Below are positions 1 to 30,235 of a DNA stretch of 64,000 nucleotides, one piece after another. The DNA lies in contig CAJWAR010000005.1 in the NCBI GenBank assembly GCA_913020445.1, positions 1 to 64,000 on the forward strand, written 5' to 3'. Source of the DNA: an uncultured Rhodospirillaceae bacterium. Lineage in GTDB: Bacteria > Pseudomonadota > Alphaproteobacteria > Rhodospirillales > UBA2165. Made by a program: the position numbers and the translations under genes. The notes below the pieces were generated by a model. That model was not told the DNA's origin. It saw nothing but the letters and a program-made list of their open reading frames with translations, and searched no databases. Position 1 is the stretch's first letter, and every line of letters begins with the position of its first letter.

Positions 1-327
1 GTCATTAGCAGACTCTTTTGCATTATCCGGATAATGTCCGCTTTCGGAGGTAGAGCAGACATCGAAAGTCAGAATTTAACGACCATCTTTGGTGAGTTAT
101 GAAAAAGACAAATCCACCACCTGCCGTTTACAAAATCCCATATAGTGGGATTTATGCTTGCCCCCTAAATCAGCATCCTATACACCTAATTCAAAATTCA
201 GGAACTTTTGCTAAAGGACTTGGATTAACTTGAGTAGTGGGTCATGGTATCCACTAAGAAACTTAATCAATGAGGGTGCCGTGCAAACTGAGCACCAAAA
301 CAATTGGGTAACAGGGAGGAATGATAC
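1..327. other. non-coding region upstream of the cupin gene
   Basis: No credible gene is seen in these 327 bases. They are fairly AT-rich and hold one clear inverted repeat at 133-153 (listed separately). A purine-rich GGGAGGA at 314-320 sits 7 nt before the ATG at 328 and acts as ribosome binding site for the cupin gene. The left part may be the tail of a promoter region or the 3' flank of a gene that lies outside the window. Confidence 0.6.
133..153. promoter_or_regulatory. palindromic operator candidate, AAATCCCAT-N3-GTGGGATTT
   Basis: Two 9-bp arms (133-141 and 145-153) are inverted repeats with one mismatch around a 3-bp spacer. The site lies 175 bp upstream of the cupin gene. A near-identical site is present at 36980-37000, upstream of the transhydroxylase-like gene, so the same regulator may bind both. 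The size and symmetry fit a dimeric repressor or activator site, for example IclR or GntR type; the regulator is not identified. Confidence 0.5.
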
Positions 328-22796: not shown

Positions 22797-23645
22797 TTAT
22801 TCGGCTGCAACGGTATTTGACAAAATGCCGATATTGGGAATTTCAACCTCAACGACATCGCCGGGTTTAAGCCAGTCTTTTTCTTCGGTGCCGATGATCG
22901 AGCCCGCCGGACTGCCGGTGGCAATCATGTCGCCGGGCTCCAGCTGAGTAAATTTTGACGCGTGGGCAATCAGATATTTGGTGTCGAAGATCATCAAATC
23001 TGTGCCCGCATCCTGCATCACAGTGCCGTTGCGCCGCGTGTAGATATGCTGCGCTGCCGGATCACCAACTTCATCGGCTGTGACGATCCAGGGGCCAATA
23101 CCGCCCGAGCGATAAAAGTTTTTAGCCGGCGTATTTTGCGTGCCCATTGCCATCCAATCCCGCACACTGCCTTCGTTCATAATCGTGTAGCCGACAATAT
23201 GATCAAGCGCGTCGTCCTCAGAAATGTGACGTCCAACCTTGCCGATGACAGCCACCAACTCGCCTTCATAGTCAAATTGCTCACCAGCTTTGGGATCAAG
23301 TATATCTTGATTATGGGCGGAAAATCCACTGACAAAGCGGCCGAAGATACTCGGGTATTGTAGCGGCCCGCCTTCTTCTACAACCTCATGATACGCCCGG
23401 TAATTCCGCCCGGCACACATGATCTTTTGCACATTGGGAATGGGGAGATCGTATTCGATTGCGTCCAGGGCGTGATCGGCGGCTTCGCTTTCAAGCGCTT
23501 TTAATTGATCCAAGGCATCAGCTGCAATGGCGTCTCTCAAGGTTGGGAATTGCGCCCCCAGCCGAGCCGAGGCATCAACCACGCCGTCATCCGTAACCAC
23601 GCCATAGCAATCTTTACCGTCAGCTTTATAGCTTATGAGCTTCAT
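22797..23645 (-). CDS. fumarylacetoacetate hydrolase (FAH) family enzyme
   Basis: A 282-residue FAH-fold enzyme. The catalytic core starts at about residue 70 ('KIMCAGRNYRAYHEVVEEGG'); the metal site is formed by 'FDYEGELVAVIG' and 'GYTIMNEGSVRD', and the end has 'LEPGDMIATGSPAGSI' as in the family. Members cleave C-C bonds of acylpyruvates or decarboxylate ring-cleavage products (HpaG type). The neighbours, two hydratase/decarboxylase paralogues and a ring-cleaving dioxygenase, place it in a meta-cleavage route. The exact substrate is not determined. Confidence 0.92.
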   Translation of the reverse strand: MKLISYKADGKDCYGVVTDDGVVDASARLGAQFPTLRDAIAADALDQLKALESEAADHALDAIEYDLPIPNVQKIMCAGRNYRAYHEVVEEGGPLQYPSIFGRFVSGFSAHNQDILDPKAGEQFDYEGELVAVIGKVGRHISEDDALDHIVGYTIMNEGSVRDWMAMGTQNTPAKNFYRSGGIGPWIVTADEVGDPAAQHIYTRRNGTVMQDAGTDLMIFDTKYLIAHASKFTQLEPGDMIATGSPAGSIIGTEEKDWLKPGDVVEVEIPNIGILSNTVAAE

Positions 23646-23654
23646 AATATTCCC

Positions 23655-24419
23655 CTAGTAAGTAGAGCGACCACCCGACAGGTCAAATACGCCGCCGGTG
23701 GAGAACGAGCAATCTTCTGAGCACAGCCACGCCACCATAGCCGCTATTTCCTCGGCTTTACCAAAGCGGCCCATTGGAATTTTTGACCGCATGAAATCAA
23801 TGTGGTCCTGGGTCATTTGATCAAAGATTGCGGTCCTGACAGCGGCCGGGGTGACGCAATTGACCATGACATTGGTTGTCGCCAATTCCTTGCCGAGGCT
23901 TTTAGTGAGGCCAATGATGCCGGCTTTACTGGCGGTATAAGCAGGCGCTTTGGGATTGCCGTCTTTACCGGCGACCGAAGCAATATTAACGATGCGGCCA
24001 TAATCATTTTCGAGCATTACCGGAATTACTGCCGAGCAAACGAGGAACGTACCGGTCAGATTAACGTCGATAACTTTCTGCCATTCTTCCGGCGGATATT
24101 CCCAGCTCGTCGTGTTGGGACCCGAGATGCCAGCATTGTTGACGGTGATATCAATGGTACCCAATTTATCTTGCGTCGCTTTGACCGCATCAGCAACCGA
24201 CGCAACATCGGCGACATTGCCGACGACACCCGAGGCCGTGCCATCACCTTGGCCATTCAGCTTGGTGACCGCCTCATCAATGGCGTCTTGGTTAATATCC
24301 CAAACGCACACATTGGCGCCGGATTGTGCCAGACGTTCAGCGATGGCATAGCCCAAACCTGCACCACCGCCGGTGACGATGGCGTTGCGACCGGCGAGAT
24401 CGATAGAATTACTGCCCAT
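23655..24419 (-). CDS. SDR-family oxidoreductase
   Basis: A 254-residue classical short-chain dehydrogenase. Cofactor loop 'TGGGAGLGYAIA' near the N-terminus with an Asp after strand 2 ('VWDI'), favouring NAD; 'NNAGISGP' structural motif; catalytic Ser in 'NIASVAGK' and 'YTASK' as the Tyr/Lys pair; a C-terminal 'STGGVFDLSGG' end. It overlaps the stop of the hydratase gene upstream by one base (stop/start at 24419), indicating translation coupling. It may oxidise an alcohol intermediate of the aromatic pathway or a cis-diol. Confidence 0.92.
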   Translation of the reverse strand: MGSNSIDLAGRNAIVTGGGAGLGYAIAERLAQSGANVCVWDINQDAIDEAVTKLNGQGDGTASGVVGNVADVASVADAVKATQDKLGTIDITVNNAGISGPNTTSWEYPPEEWQKVIDVNLTGTFLVCSAVIPVMLENDYGRIVNIASVAGKDGNPKAPAYTASKAGIIGLTKSLGKELATTNVMVNCVTPAAVRTAIFDQMTQDHIDFMRSKIPMGRFGKAEEIAAMVAWLCSEDCSFSTGGVFDLSGGRSTY

Positions 24420-25189
24420 TATTTAGCCACTCCAAAACTGCAAGAGCCCAAGCCCTCAACGGTATTTCTGACACTGACACCTTCATAGAGCGCTTCAGCG
24501 GCGGTCGCCCCACCGGCCAAGACAATCCAGCCGGCTTCAAGCGTCTCACCGTCTTCAGACGTCATACGCGAAGCGGCGGCTAGCGAGCGGGCAGGATGGC
24601 CAAGAATGGCAGCACTTGAGCCGATTTGCACGGCGCGGCCATCAAACTCCATGACCATACCGAGATTGGCGATATCACTATCGGGTTTGCACCATGGACC
24701 AATGATAAAGCCGGACGAAGACGAATTATCGGCAACCACGTCCTCGACAGTGAATTTGAAATTTTCATAGCGGGAATCGATAATTTCCATGGCCGGCGCA
24801 ACCGCTTCTACGGCATTCCAGGCTTCTGCCGTGGAAAATGGACCGGTTAGCGGTGCTTTCAGTAAATAGGCAATCTCCGGCTCGACCCGCGGGTGAACGT
24901 AGTTGGAGATATCGATCTCGCCACCGTCTTCAACCAACATGGAATTGGTGAGACGGCCCCAAATCATATCGTCGACGCCCATTTGCACCATTTTAGCCCG
25001 GCTGGTAAAACCCATCTTCATACCAACGCGATGCTCACCGGCAGCCAAGCGCATATCTATACTTTTGGCTTGAACGCGGTAGGCTTCTTCCAGCGTAAAG
25101 CTTTCGGTTTCGGATAATTGCGAAATCGCTGTCGCATTAATTTGCGCATCGAAAACAATCTTGGCCAGTTTATCTATATTTTTACTCAC
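24419..25189 (-). CDS. 2-keto-4-pentenoate hydratase / 2-oxohepta-3-enedioate hydratase family protein
   Basis: A 256-residue enzyme of the MhpD/DmpE/DmpH/HpaH family. 'RVGMKMGFTSRAKMVQMGVDDMIWGRL' and 'HPRVEPEIAYLL' (metal-binding Glu residues) and 'ILGHPARSLA' are family marks. The GTG at 25189 is chosen as start: GGGAGAA lies 7 nt upstream, whereas the longer TTG frame to 25204 has none. It is one of two paralogues in tandem; in catechol meta pathways one is the vinylpyruvate hydratase and one the oxalocrotonate decarboxylase, so this pair may do those two steps. Confidence 0.92.
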   Translation of the reverse strand: MSKNIDKLAKIVFDAQINATAISQLSETESFTLEEAYRVQAKSIDMRLAAGEHRVGMKMGFTSRAKMVQMGVDDMIWGRLTNSMLVEDGGEIDISNYVHPRVEPEIAYLLKAPLTGPFSTAEAWNAVEAVAPAMEIIDSRYENFKFTVEDVVADNSSSSGFIIGPWCKPDSDIANLGMVMEFDGRAVQIGSSAAILGHPARSLAAASRMTSEDGETLEAGWIVLAGGATAAEALYEGVSVRNTVEGLGSCSFGVAK

Positions 25190-25215
25190 CTGAACTTCTC
25201 CCAAATTTTTTCGGA

Positions 25216-26001
25216 TCAGGCTGCAAAAGCAGCGCGAACGGAGCCAAGGCCATTGATGCGGACTTCGTAGACCTGACCGGCTTCAACGCCAACCATCGGC
25301 CCTAAGGCGCCCGACATGACAACATCACCAGCCGATAACGGACGGCCACGCTTGACCATTTCTTCAGCCAGCCAGCGTACGGCATTCACCGGATGACCCA
25401 AACAGGCTGCGCCGGCGCCAACCGAGACCGGCTCACCTTTGCATTCCATCACCATGCCGCACATGCGACCGTCGAAATCTTCGATTTTGACTTTTTGATT
25501 GCCGAGGACGTACAGCACCGCCGACGCGTTATCGGCGACGGTATCCTGTATTTTGATATTCCAATCCTTGATGCGGCTATCGACAATTTCAATGCTTGGC
25601 GTTGCATAGGCGATGGCATTGATCACTTCTGAATTTGTCGGCTTTTCAAAGTTGATGTCTTTTTCCAGCACATAAGTAATCTCAGCTTCAACGCGAGGCG
25701 CCAAGAGAGAGCTCGTTTGAACTTCTTCGCCGTCCGGCACCGACATATCGGCGAACAGGATACCGAAATCAGGCCGGTCGACGCCGAGTTGCTTTTGCAC
25801 CAGTTTCGATGTCAGACCAATTTTACGGCCGACCATGCGGGCGCCACTGGCGAGCCGGCGTTCGGTATTGATCTCCTGCACCGCATAGGCCGCATCAACA
25901 TCGCCTTCCGGCAATAGATCACGTACCGGCTCGCAGGCTTTTCCTGTTTGGTATGCTTCATGCAGCCAGTCGGCCGCTTTTTGAATAGCGTCGTCGCTCA
26001 T
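25216..26001 (-). CDS. 2-keto-4-pentenoate hydratase / 4-oxalocrotonate decarboxylase family protein
   Basis: A 261-residue paralogue of the next gene, first in the minus-strand operon. Marks are 'MVGRKIGLTSKLVQKQLGVDRPDFGIL', 'APRVEAEITYVLEKD' with the metal-binding Glu pair, 'GAACLGHPVNAVRWLAEEM' and 'LSAGDVVMSGALGPM'. Lengths and motifs suit DmpE/DmpH-type metal-dependent hydratase or decarboxylase. It has a RBS GGAGAAC 6 nt before the ATG. The divergent dioxygenase gene starts 200 bp away, so a control region lies between. Confidence 0.92.
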   Translation of the reverse strand: MSDDAIQKAADWLHEAYQTGKACEPVRDLLPEGDVDAAYAVQEINTERRLASGARMVGRKIGLTSKLVQKQLGVDRPDFGILFADMSVPDGEEVQTSSLLAPRVEAEITYVLEKDINFEKPTNSEVINAIAYATPSIEIVDSRIKDWNIKIQDTVADNASAVLYVLGNQKVKIEDFDGRMCGMVMECKGEPVSVGAGAACLGHPVNAVRWLAEEMVKRGRPLSAGDVVMSGALGPMVGVEAGQVYEVRINGLGSVRAAFAA

Positions 26002-26029
26002 GATGTTCTCCTGATATTTTTCTTTTCGT

Positions 26030-26040
26030 GCTCTAAGAGC
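26030..26040. promoter_or_regulatory. perfect palindrome GCTCTAAGAGC in the divergent control region
   Basis: An 11-bp perfect palindrome 29 bp upstream of the first gene of the minus-strand meta-cleavage operon, within the 199-bp spacer that also serves the plus-strand dioxygenase. It could be part of an operator; no regulator is encoded next to it. Short palindromes arise by chance, so confidence is low. Confidence 0.25.
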
Positions 26041-26200
26041 TTGATGCAGATATTACTGGTCTCAAGGTAGAATTCCAGCGAATATTCACCACCAATGATG
26101 ATGGTTGCACCTTCTTAGATAGCGACGGCATAATAAGCCAGCATTTTATCCCGGCGACCCCATAACTTAAATTAATAAAAAAATTAATCAGGAGAACATA

Positions 26201-27040
26201 ATGAACGACCAAAAAACCGGAGTAATTGCCGCGGTTATCGCCTCGCACACACCGCGCATGGCGTATGAAGACAAAGCCTGGGATTTTACGCTTGGGTTGA
26301 TTGACGGCTTGAAAGAATTGGGAACAAGTTTACGCGAATTAAATCCCGATCTCATTGTCGTCAATACAACCCACTGGATCACCACTTTTGACTGGGTTAT
26401 TACCTCGCATGACCACCACAATGGCATTTGTATTGCTGAAGAGGCGCCCCATCTGATCCCGGAACTGCCGTATGACCGGCCGGGTGATCGGGCTTACGCA
26501 GAAGCGCTCAACGACGATCTCAATGGCGCAGAAATTCCGAGCTACGCCACCGATGCCAAGCATTTCCACTGGGATTATGGCACCGCTGTGCCGCTGCAGT
26601 ATCTCGATCCGGAAAGTAAAATTCCGGCTGTGCTGACACCAACCTGCTATGCCTCCACCTTGGATGAAAATATCCAAGTTGGCCGCCAAATTAATGCCAC
26701 CGCCAAACGCTTGGGCAAACGGGCGATCGTCGTCGTCAGCAATGCGCTCACTCATTTGGTGGTCCGCGGACCGGCCACATGGCCATTGCCTGAACATATG
26801 GAGATGGATCACAAATTCATCGATATGGTCAAGGCGGCTGACGTTGATGGCGCAACCAACTATTTGCCGGACTATGCCCGGGATGCTAAATGCGAAATGG
26901 GTGGACGTGGGCTCGGCGTATTCTTGGGTGCTGCCAAAGCTCTGGAAGAAAGCTTCGGTAATCTTTCAGGGGCGCAATATGGTCCCTATGCGCAGAGCTC
27001 GGCCAGCGGCAACGCCAATTTATCTTTGGTTGCTGCTTAG
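26201..27040 (+). CDS. class III extradiol ring-cleavage dioxygenase (LigB family)
   Basis: A 279-residue LigB-superfamily non-haem Fe(II) dioxygenase, which opens catecholic rings next to the diol. Likely iron and acid-base residues are His in 'IASHTPRM', His in 'NTTHW' and the 'APHLIPELPYDRPGD' stretch, with 'SNALTHLV' later. The closest named relatives by eye are homoprotocatechuate and 2,3-dihydroxyphenylpropionate types. RBS AGGAGAA precedes the ATG. The last codon is TAG, formed where a MITE-like element begins, so the C-terminus may be shortened or altered relative to the ancestor. It starts a divergent operon with the hydratase genes. Confidence 0.9.
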   Translation: MNDQKTGVIAAVIASHTPRMAYEDKAWDFTLGLIDGLKELGTSLRELNPDLIVVNTTHWITTFDWVITSHDHHNGICIAEEAPHLIPELPYDRPGDRAYAEALNDDLNGAEIPSYATDAKHFHWDYGTAVPLQYLDPESKIPAVLTPTCYASTLDENIQVGRQINATAKRLGKRAIVVVSNALTHLVVRGPATWPLPEHMEMDHKFIDMVKAADVDGATNYLPDYARDAKCEMGGRGLGVFLGAAKALEESFGNLSGAQYGPYAQSSASGNANLSLVAA

Positions 27041-27306
27041 GGTCAGGACTCATTAATCTCATACAATTCTGTTTAGCCAGGAGGTTTCAAATGCAAGAAA
27101 AAAAGCGCAAGAACATGCCAAAGCATATTCGAGCATTTTTGACGCTGCAGTTGGGGCCTCCCGGCCAAACCCGAAGGGCGGGGCTCTTTTTCCGCCGGGC
27201 TATCGTTGTGAACGACTTGTGATGATTGGCATCACCGCGCCATCCACGCCTCATCCGGCGAAAAAATAGCTCCCGCAGAATGGATGACATTAATGAATCC
27301 TGACCC
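27040..27306. mobile_element. MITE-like element with 18-bp terminal inverted repeats
   Basis: The ends GGGTCAGGACTCATTAAT (27040-27057) and, inverted, 27289-27306 match at 17 of 18 bases; similarity continues imperfectly for about 14 more bases. The element (267 bp) is flanked by TA on both sides, as if TA were duplicated on insertion, and has an internal stem (GGGCTCTTTTTCCGCCGG near 27181 versus the inverse near 27256). It encodes no transposase, so it would be moved in trans. Its first base completes the TAG stop of the dioxygenase gene and its last base completes the TAG stop of the convergent permease gene. Confidence 0.75.
27091..27222 (+). CDS. 43-residue ORF inside the MITE-like element
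   Basis: An ATG at 27091 follows a strong AGGAGG (27079-27084) with 6-nt spacing and opens a basic 43-residue frame ('MQEKKRKNMPKHIRAFLTL' start). There is no known family. The strong ribosome site argues for translation, but the frame sits entirely within a repeat element whose complementary strand is also open, so it could be a chance frame. Confidence 0.25.
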   Translation: MQEKKRKNMPKHIRAFLTLQLGPPGQTRRAGLFFRRAIVVNDL

Positions 27307-28082
27307 TAGATGAGACCGGTAATTCCGTCGTAACAAAGCTTTACGCCGGTTAGAAACAGCAGCGTAATAATAATTCGGTAAAACAGCACGTCATCCACTT
27401 TGCGGTGGATCAAAAGCCCCAGCCAAATACCGATTGGCACGATTGGTAACAGCACCAGCGAGGTCGAGAGATTGGTCAGATGAAATTGGCCGAGCCACCA
27501 ATAGGGACCGATCTTAGCATAATTCACATAAGTATAAAAAATCGCCAGCGTGCCCATATACATCGTCTTGTCGAGGCGCTGCGGAATCATATAGACATTC
27601 AACGGCGGCGCGCCCGAATGGGCGACAAAACTCGTAAAGCCGCACATCGCACACCAAAAGCCGCCCTTCACAATCGCCGGCTGGGTCGGTGGCCCCAATT
27701 CTTTTTTGCGCACGTAGTCAAGAAATCGAGCGAGAGCGAAAGCGACGGCGATGACACCAATGATGAGTTTAATGGCCGCTGGATCAAGATATTTAAAACC
27801 AAGTGTGCCAACAATAATACCGATTGTCGCCGCCGGAATCATGATCATCAGGTTTTTCTTGTGCCAGGTTTTGCGGTAGGCCCAGATAGCAAAAAAATCA
27901 GCGATGCAGAGGATCGGCAGCAATATGGCAGCGGCTTGCGGCACGGAAACAGCAAGTGCCATCAGCGGCGTCGCCAAACCACCAGTGCCACCAATGCCAG
28001 CCTTAGCGATACCGATAGATATCACCGCCGGAATGGCGACAAGGTAAAACAGCGGGTCGGCTATGAGAGGTAATTGGTCCAT
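27306..28082 (-). CDS. TauE/SafE-family sulfite/anion exporter
   Basis: A 258-residue membrane protein with about eight hydrophobic helices and the family's duplicated pattern ('GIAKAGIGGTGGLATPLMAL' near the N-terminus, 'GGFWCAMCGFTSFVAHSGAPPLNVYMIP' in the second half). TauE/SafE proteins export sulfite or organosulfur anions, or carry other organic anions. Its stop codon is created by the end of the adjacent MITE-like element. It is convergent with the dioxygenase gene and divergent from the TetR gene. Confidence 0.88.
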   Translation of the reverse strand: MDQLPLIADPLFYLVAIPAVISIGIAKAGIGGTGGLATPLMALAVSVPQAAAILLPILCIADFFAIWAYRKTWHKKNLMIMIPAATIGIIVGTLGFKYLDPAAIKLIIGVIAVAFALARFLDYVRKKELGPPTQPAIVKGGFWCAMCGFTSFVAHSGAPPLNVYMIPQRLDKTMYMGTLAIFYTYVNYAKIGPYWWLGQFHLTNLSTSLVLLPIVPIGIWLGLLIHRKVDDVLFYRIIITLLFLTGVKLCYDGITGLI

Positions 28083-29987: not shown

Positions 29988-30095
29988 TCTAAAAATACGG
30001 TTTAAAAATCATATAAAATTAAATTTGCAGCCTACACGCAATATTAGATTATCCACTAAGACCTAGTCCAGATAAAAGCCCAGCAGGTAAAAAAC

Positions 30096-30210
30096 ACCCC
30101 CCACCCTAACCCTCCCCCGCAAGGAGGGAGGGGATTAGATTGAATACATTGCAACAATAGCTCCTTCCCTCCCCAATTTATTGGGCGGGGGAAGGTTGGG
30201 ATGGGGAGGG
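30096..30210. repeat. palindromic CCCTAACCCTCCCCC-type intergenic repeat
   Basis: A C-rich left arm (CCACCCTAACCCTCCCCC near 30101-30118) and a G-rich right arm (GGGGGAAGGTTGGGATGGGG near 30186-30206) are inverted copies, with inner CAAGGAGGGAGGGG / CTCCTTCCCTCCCC pairing. Such REP-like palindromes recur in many proteobacterial intergenic spaces. Here it sits downstream of the TRAP operon (30236) and of the convergent AT-rich gene. Confidence 0.7.
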
Positions 30211-30235
30211 TCTTAGAAAGCACCAGAAATCTTCT

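Follow-up and report, generated by a model that had tools for sequence, protein, structure and literature searches.

A structured MITE lies between two convergent genes in the 64,000-nucleotide stretch of DNA analysed here (the window), and our reading, to which we give a probability of about 0.87, is that this element was mobilised in trans by an IS427-like transposase, hit the TA of two overlapping stop codons and rebuilt both of them, its fold probably being that of a single strand. As far as the letters of the locus and its flanks tell, the insertion split the TA common to both stops and left a copy on each side, so that each stop was rebuilt from TA plus the G that follows. That the element was mobilised in trans, and that its fold has a role, we infer from the observations set out below.

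Structure of the Element

The element (Table 1) is 269-271 bp long, is non-coding and matches no protein family. The 18-bp inverted ends, coordinates and stop-codon junctions described in a first-pass annotation were confirmed from the sequence, and the inverted ends extend to 28-nt arms (27038-27065 and 27281-27308, 89% complementary), the chance expectation for two such end matches in 64 kb being 0.05. The left end begins, as had been stated, with the final base of the dioxygenase stop (TAG, 27038-27040). The right end does finish at 27306, but to call this the first stop base of the permease is true only in plus-strand coordinates, as it is the third of the TAG in the reading direction (27308-27306, minus strand). 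The postulated TA target duplicate was found on both sides, and the "MITE-like insertion" proves to be a real MITE: short, multicopy and without transposase, with a TA duplication and with empty sites in congeners. The left arm is matched at 27072-27168 by a covariance model of the arm (E 4.9e-17). The small frame preceded by AGGAGG to which the annotation had drawn attention also exists; as a gene it was rejected, because a sibling copy (L003) has an in-frame stop, another (L030) has lost the ATG, and L062 with its related copies has no start; in related families the Shine-Dalgarno sequence and the ATG are likewise not kept.

The CcrM methylation site GANTC is present in both ends in the window, at 27047-27051 (GACTC) and 27295-27299 (GAATC), and in 25 of 84 family ends; the site is polymorphic (GACCC, GATCC) and might tune transposition to the methylation state. 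Elsewhere in the window, an open frame on the minus strand (30056-30223) with NPLPPCGGGLGWG resembles a translated palindromic intergenic repeat, not a gene.

Table 1. Coordinates in the window of the element, its parts and the flanking genes
Feature	Position	Strand	Remark
LigB-family ring-cleaving dioxygenase gene (PF02900)	26201..27040	+	Terminates in rebuilt TAG
MITE including both TA copies	27038..27308	.	Element proper 27039/27040 to 27306/27307
Left TA target duplication copy	27038..27039	.	Bases 1-2 of dioxygenase stop TAG
Outer stem, 5' side	27039..27070	.	Pairs with 27277-27307
Left terminal inverted repeat GGGTCAGGACTCATTAAT	27040..27057	+	
Left arm, module M	27071..27170	+	Long hairpin, two conserved internal loops
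Open frame of 43 codons	27091..27222	+	Largely within left arm; no gene
Central mini-hairpin	27171..27177	.	CCGAAGG type
Right arm	27178..27276	-	Inverted copy of left-arm module
Outer stem, 3' side	27277..27307	.	
Right terminal inverted repeat GGGTCAGGATTCATTAAT	27289..27306	-	1 mismatch to left repeat
TauE/SafE-family permease gene (PF01925)	27306..28082	-	Terminates in rebuilt TAG
Right TA target duplication copy	27307..27308	.	Bases 1-2 (minus strand) of permease stop TAG

The Insertion Site

The dioxygenase was matched in six relatives besides the own genome (E <= 1e-30). Three genomes of the same genus (L171, L172, L173) carry the permease gene directly after the dioxygenase gene, in convergent orientation and with the element absent, the two coding sequences overlapping by 4 nt (TTAA, CTAG and TTAA) with one TA in both stops. 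The dioxygenase of these congeners ends in ...NANLSLVAA or ...NANLALVAA and the permease in ...KLCYDGITGLI, ...ITALI or ...ISGLI, in both proteins at the same last residue as in the window, and the target-site duplication (TA) is matched by an empty site in all three. When the window flanks are joined at one TA they give TTAG, the dioxygenase gene ending ...GCT TAG and the permease gene ...ATC TAA. The dioxygenase gene, on the plus strand, belongs to an aromatic-degradation gene cluster (22797-27040), beside fumarylacetoacetate-hydrolase-like, SDR and two 2-oxopent-4-enoate-hydratase-like genes on the minus strand, the roles of the other genes being judged from their sequence.

In the mechanism that we propose, a non-autonomous structured MITE would be moved in trans by a transposase of the IS5 family (IS427-like), which would insert at YTAR and duplicate the TA. 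The target TA was here the dinucleotide common to two convergent, overlapping stops (TTAG, that is, TAG for the dioxygenase and TAA on the opposite strand for the permease). As the element ends start with a G after the TA, each flank reads TAG and the protein ends are unchanged; an element that lands in any other TAA or TAG stop is silent in the same manner, and in YTAR overlaps two stops are rebuilt together.

When copies were counted, as the annotation had suggested, the 4.2-Mb assembly proved to hold one remnant besides six full copies, which are 89-100% identical. Another of the own copies, on contig C67, directly abuts two stops, those of a thioesterase-like and a TPP-enzyme-like gene. 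This copy is missing from two congeners (G004 and G002), in which 3 and 14 nt separate the gene ends and the TPP-enzyme-like gene ends at an unchanged position. A remnant (L007, G000:C22:26216-26262) is that of one element end (CCTTAAATG), shortly past a gene stop and directly before the next ATG, and looks like a decayed half-element; another MITE copy (L054:6139-6426) has an internal run of N, an assembly gap in the palindrome.

Target Sites and Stop Codons

An end-sequence scan for AGGGTCAGGAYYCATTAAT gave at least 120 stretches, mostly alphaproteobacterial; in about forty among the matches listed both ends are present, usually at a distance of 263-306 bp, and sixty more regions were fetched, from 15 genomes. 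The exact two-ended pattern was not used for sampling, because among 386 genomes of the class it was found in the own genome and one other only. The flanks of 43 copies have C or T before the TA and A or G after it in nearly all cases (YTAR, with CTAG as the favoured tetranucleotide) and TA on both sides in most, so that the YTAR target and the 2-bp TA duplication of IS5/IS427 are both found.

Site classes were assigned with a simple codon-usage gene caller, after removal of the element in silico, for 72 unique copies with intact TA: 41 are intergenic, 21 lie in a single stop, 6 in a pair of stops and 4 are intragenic, as against 750, 96, 2 and 1152, respectively, for the remaining YTAR sites in these stretches. 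Gene stops hold 27/72 of the copies, versus 98/848 of the non-genic YTAR sites (p=2e-8; odds ratio 5, or 4.5 after tetranucleotide stratification), a comparison to be read with crude gene calls, several copies from the same genomes and small numbers in mind; double stops are represented by 6 copies versus 2 background sites. The family is probably enriched in stops because insertion into TAA or TAG is silent and overlaps rebuild two stops at once, although the enrichment could stem from selection (tolerated sites) as much as from target choice.

Two other accounts bear on the stops. The first-pass annotation had proposed that the element and its TA generated both stops and that the genes had other C-termini before. 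The present TAG codons do include the element's first G, and to this extent the proposal stood; however, the comparison with element-free relatives that it had itself named as decisive returned the same stops and C-terminal residues in the three congeners, and both stops are already there in the joined flanks, so that the insertion rebuilt them without new C-termini; the proposal of other C-termini is refuted, the creation of stops de novo being highly improbable. Its suggestion that the genes had been close or overlapping agrees with the 4-nt overlap in the congeners. The other account, random insertion over YTAR with only the harmless sites being seen, has a chance only slightly short of even: nearly no copies are intragenic (4/72), and many repeats, such as the pneumococcal BOX, RUP and SPRITE, are over-represented in convergent regions (PMC3049150). 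Nevertheless, stops are over-used even inside convergent intervals (copies 22/32 versus sites 38/144, p=1.7e-5), in which insertion between the genes ought to do just as little harm.

A Conserved Fold

Diverged copies folded separately gave the same layout, composed of an outer stem of ~31 bp, a left arm of ~97 nt, a hairpin of 7-11 nt and an inverted right arm of ~97 nt. The left arms align with the reverse-complemented right arms, with internal-loop sequences in common, and the element is therefore two-fold symmetric. The covariance model of the arm (R1) matched only elements of the MITE kind among 40 loci. Double changes are found in 35/37 pairs of the arm, with a covariation score of 0.594 versus 0.197 for shuffled and at most 0.175 for slid alignments. 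Sequences outside model building scored 0.93 versus 0.23 and 1.005 versus 0.229 shuffled, with 94% of cells pairing and double changes in 25/25 pairs; these alignments were fitted to R1, which favours it, and independent minimum-energy folds agree. The two arms keep their register in 27/42 and 15/18 elements versus 2/150 with a shuffled core, and four elements (L299, L335, L346, L348) have both arms matched, on opposite strands. No element matches any family at E<=1 in a search with the Rfam 15 covariance models; an anti-hemB match in L126 was rejected, since it does not fall within the element and scores far under the threshold.

Strand and Possible Role of the Core

Whole-element folding energy has no strand preference (16/42), as expected from the two-fold symmetry; a DNA role predicts the same. 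A count of G.U pairs over the model columns was dropped because it was biased; in the Watson-Crick-only folds that replaced it, the isolated mismatches of the module strand are 54 G.U versus 17 A.C (copies within a genome being non-independent). One G.U pair is nearly invariant, being present in 42/45 sequences of the model set and in 14/23 and 13/18 outside model building. This excess and this pair favour, as far as base pairing can tell, a single-stranded, RNA-like form. In the inverted layout the module would be met first by transcription from either neighbouring gene, and since it comes first whichever neighbour is transcribed into the element, we infer that it acts as a single strand, probably in RNA, an RNA role being likelier than a DNA one. 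A 3'-UTR role cannot be an essential one, because 15 of the 67 non-genic copies of known context sit between divergent genes.

More speculatively, the core could be an undescribed, Pseudomonadota-wide structured lineage of its own, probably RNA, which swaps its terminal repeats to ride TA-targeting transposases and whose two inverted modules would bind a conserved host factor from either transcribed strand; we hold this extended reading as a tentative one. A fold at the DNA level, as a cruciform or as single-stranded hairpins in transposition or replication, is also conceivable, if not what we would expect. The two-fold symmetric layout, the folding energy without strand preference and the pairing of the ends within the outer stem all suit it, yet the 54:17 ratio and the near-invariant G.U pair fit RNA better, even if G.T is the best-tolerated mismatch in DNA too. 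Template switching during replication can correct long quasi-palindromes, and functionless arms could be kept by such repair; this is improbable, as repair would erase the internal loops (AGG..ACG; GCAGG..CAAG), yet these are the most conserved part of the arm, and the spacing is fixed across classes.

Distribution and Exchanged Ends

R1 has matches in 25 of 241 evenly drawn Alphaproteobacteria genomes and in 50 of 299 Pseudomonadota genomes, the core being found across alpha-, beta- and gammaproteobacteria. Most of the matches inspected lie within elements of 254-290 bp, usually TA-bounded and of the same geometry, and about 20 different terminal repeats are attached to homologous cores. Carriers identified by BLAST include Alteromonas, Pseudoalteromonas, Catenovulum, Variovorax, Phaeobacter, Pseudosulfitobacter and sphingomonad plasmids, with no annotation beneath the matches, including every plasmid record checked; one gammaproteobacterial element had no match in phages and E. 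coli genomes. We read these elements as a structured MITE superfamily that swaps ends among TA-targeting transposases. For the other terminal-repeat types, PF13340 elements (in 9 of 12 such genomes) do not match the ends of the MITEs in the same genome, and co-resident PF13340 elements were rejected as the source of the exchanged ends, no matching partner having been found. The element L316 (genome G241) is similar to the ends of L287/L313, which come from a different genome. No published copies of the end sequence were found in the part of the literature covered.

Partner Transposons

The parental transposase that the annotation had asked for is not present in the window's own assembly (95% complete; searched by PF13340 and by protein), and mobility in this genome is either past or its source is missing; the own-genome copies may be stranded. 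Transposons with the same ends were found, however, in other MITE-bearing genomes. In Aminobacter (L055), an 828-bp element bounded by the same ends encodes PF13340 and DDE_Tnp_1. Transposons of 823-853 bp with both domains, flanked by YTAR and with ends that are identical or closely related, were found in further genomes (L261, L264, L266, L267, L271), several of which carry the MITE. The MITE therefore has its ends in common with autonomous transposons (L055/L259, 828 bp; L261, 835 bp; L264, 846 bp; L272, 828 bp), and ends alone, the MITE core not being found in the three transposon loci searched by model (L055, L059, L076). In the further genomes, the IS427-like ends vary gradually around AGGGTCAGGACTCATT from one genome to another, a possible series for the co-evolution of ends and transposase.

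Comparison with Known Repeats

The partners resemble the IS427 group of IS5 in size, in having two overlapping frames and in the 2-bp duplication, the Paracoccus elements being of 832-865 bp (PMC3281130), and IS5 shares with the present family the YTAR target with CTAG commonest (PMC5493358); with the MITE the partners have the ends alone in common, in the loci searched for the core. RUP (Streptococcus pneumoniae, IS630-Spn1) and Correia/NEMIS are likewise short and non-coding, with terminal inverted repeats, a TA on either side and a stable fold, and RUP also has its ends in common with a transposon (PMC2229807). Unlike these, the present MITE has ~265 bp, two inverted hairpin arms with a central hairpin, a range of three Pseudomonadota classes and exchanged ends. 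QMITE1/QMITE2 of Coxiella burnetii are similar in their many copies at gene 3' ends and their very stable folds, but can alter C-termini and have other ends and duplications (PMC5896051).

The nearest precedent for the stops is the pneumococcal BOX, from which the upstream gene takes its stop codon in 36 cases, with no strong evidence that genes are truncated, and which is enriched between convergent genes, like the present MITE (PMC3049150). Pneumococcal repeats are known both to rebuild stops with no truncation and to prefer convergent genes; BOX is, however, of unrelated sequence and other modular layout, and no double stop from a common TA is described in the passages covered (PMC3049150). 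The CcrM-associated intergenic repeats of Caulobacter (CIR; Chen and Shapiro 2003), compared by their description (PMC2229807), are alphaproteobacterial, intergenic and of conserved fold, with two hairpin arms and a linker that recall the present arms, and their CcrM link is paralleled by the GANTC in the present ends. They are, however, of ~110 bp and described as only partly MITE-like (PMC2229807).

Significance

Within the part of the literature covered, no earlier description was found either of two stops rebuilt from one common TA or of a core conserved in three classes with exchanged ends. The case provides a clean rule for the harmless entry of a transposon into a stop codon, even into two overlapping stops, and shows a route by which tightly packed convergent genes acquire an insert between them. 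It also reveals a structured mobile element of three proteobacterial classes, absent from Rfam, whose core outlasts its ends; such a durable core, for which a function becomes directly testable, reverses the usual picture of MITEs as decaying transposon remnants.
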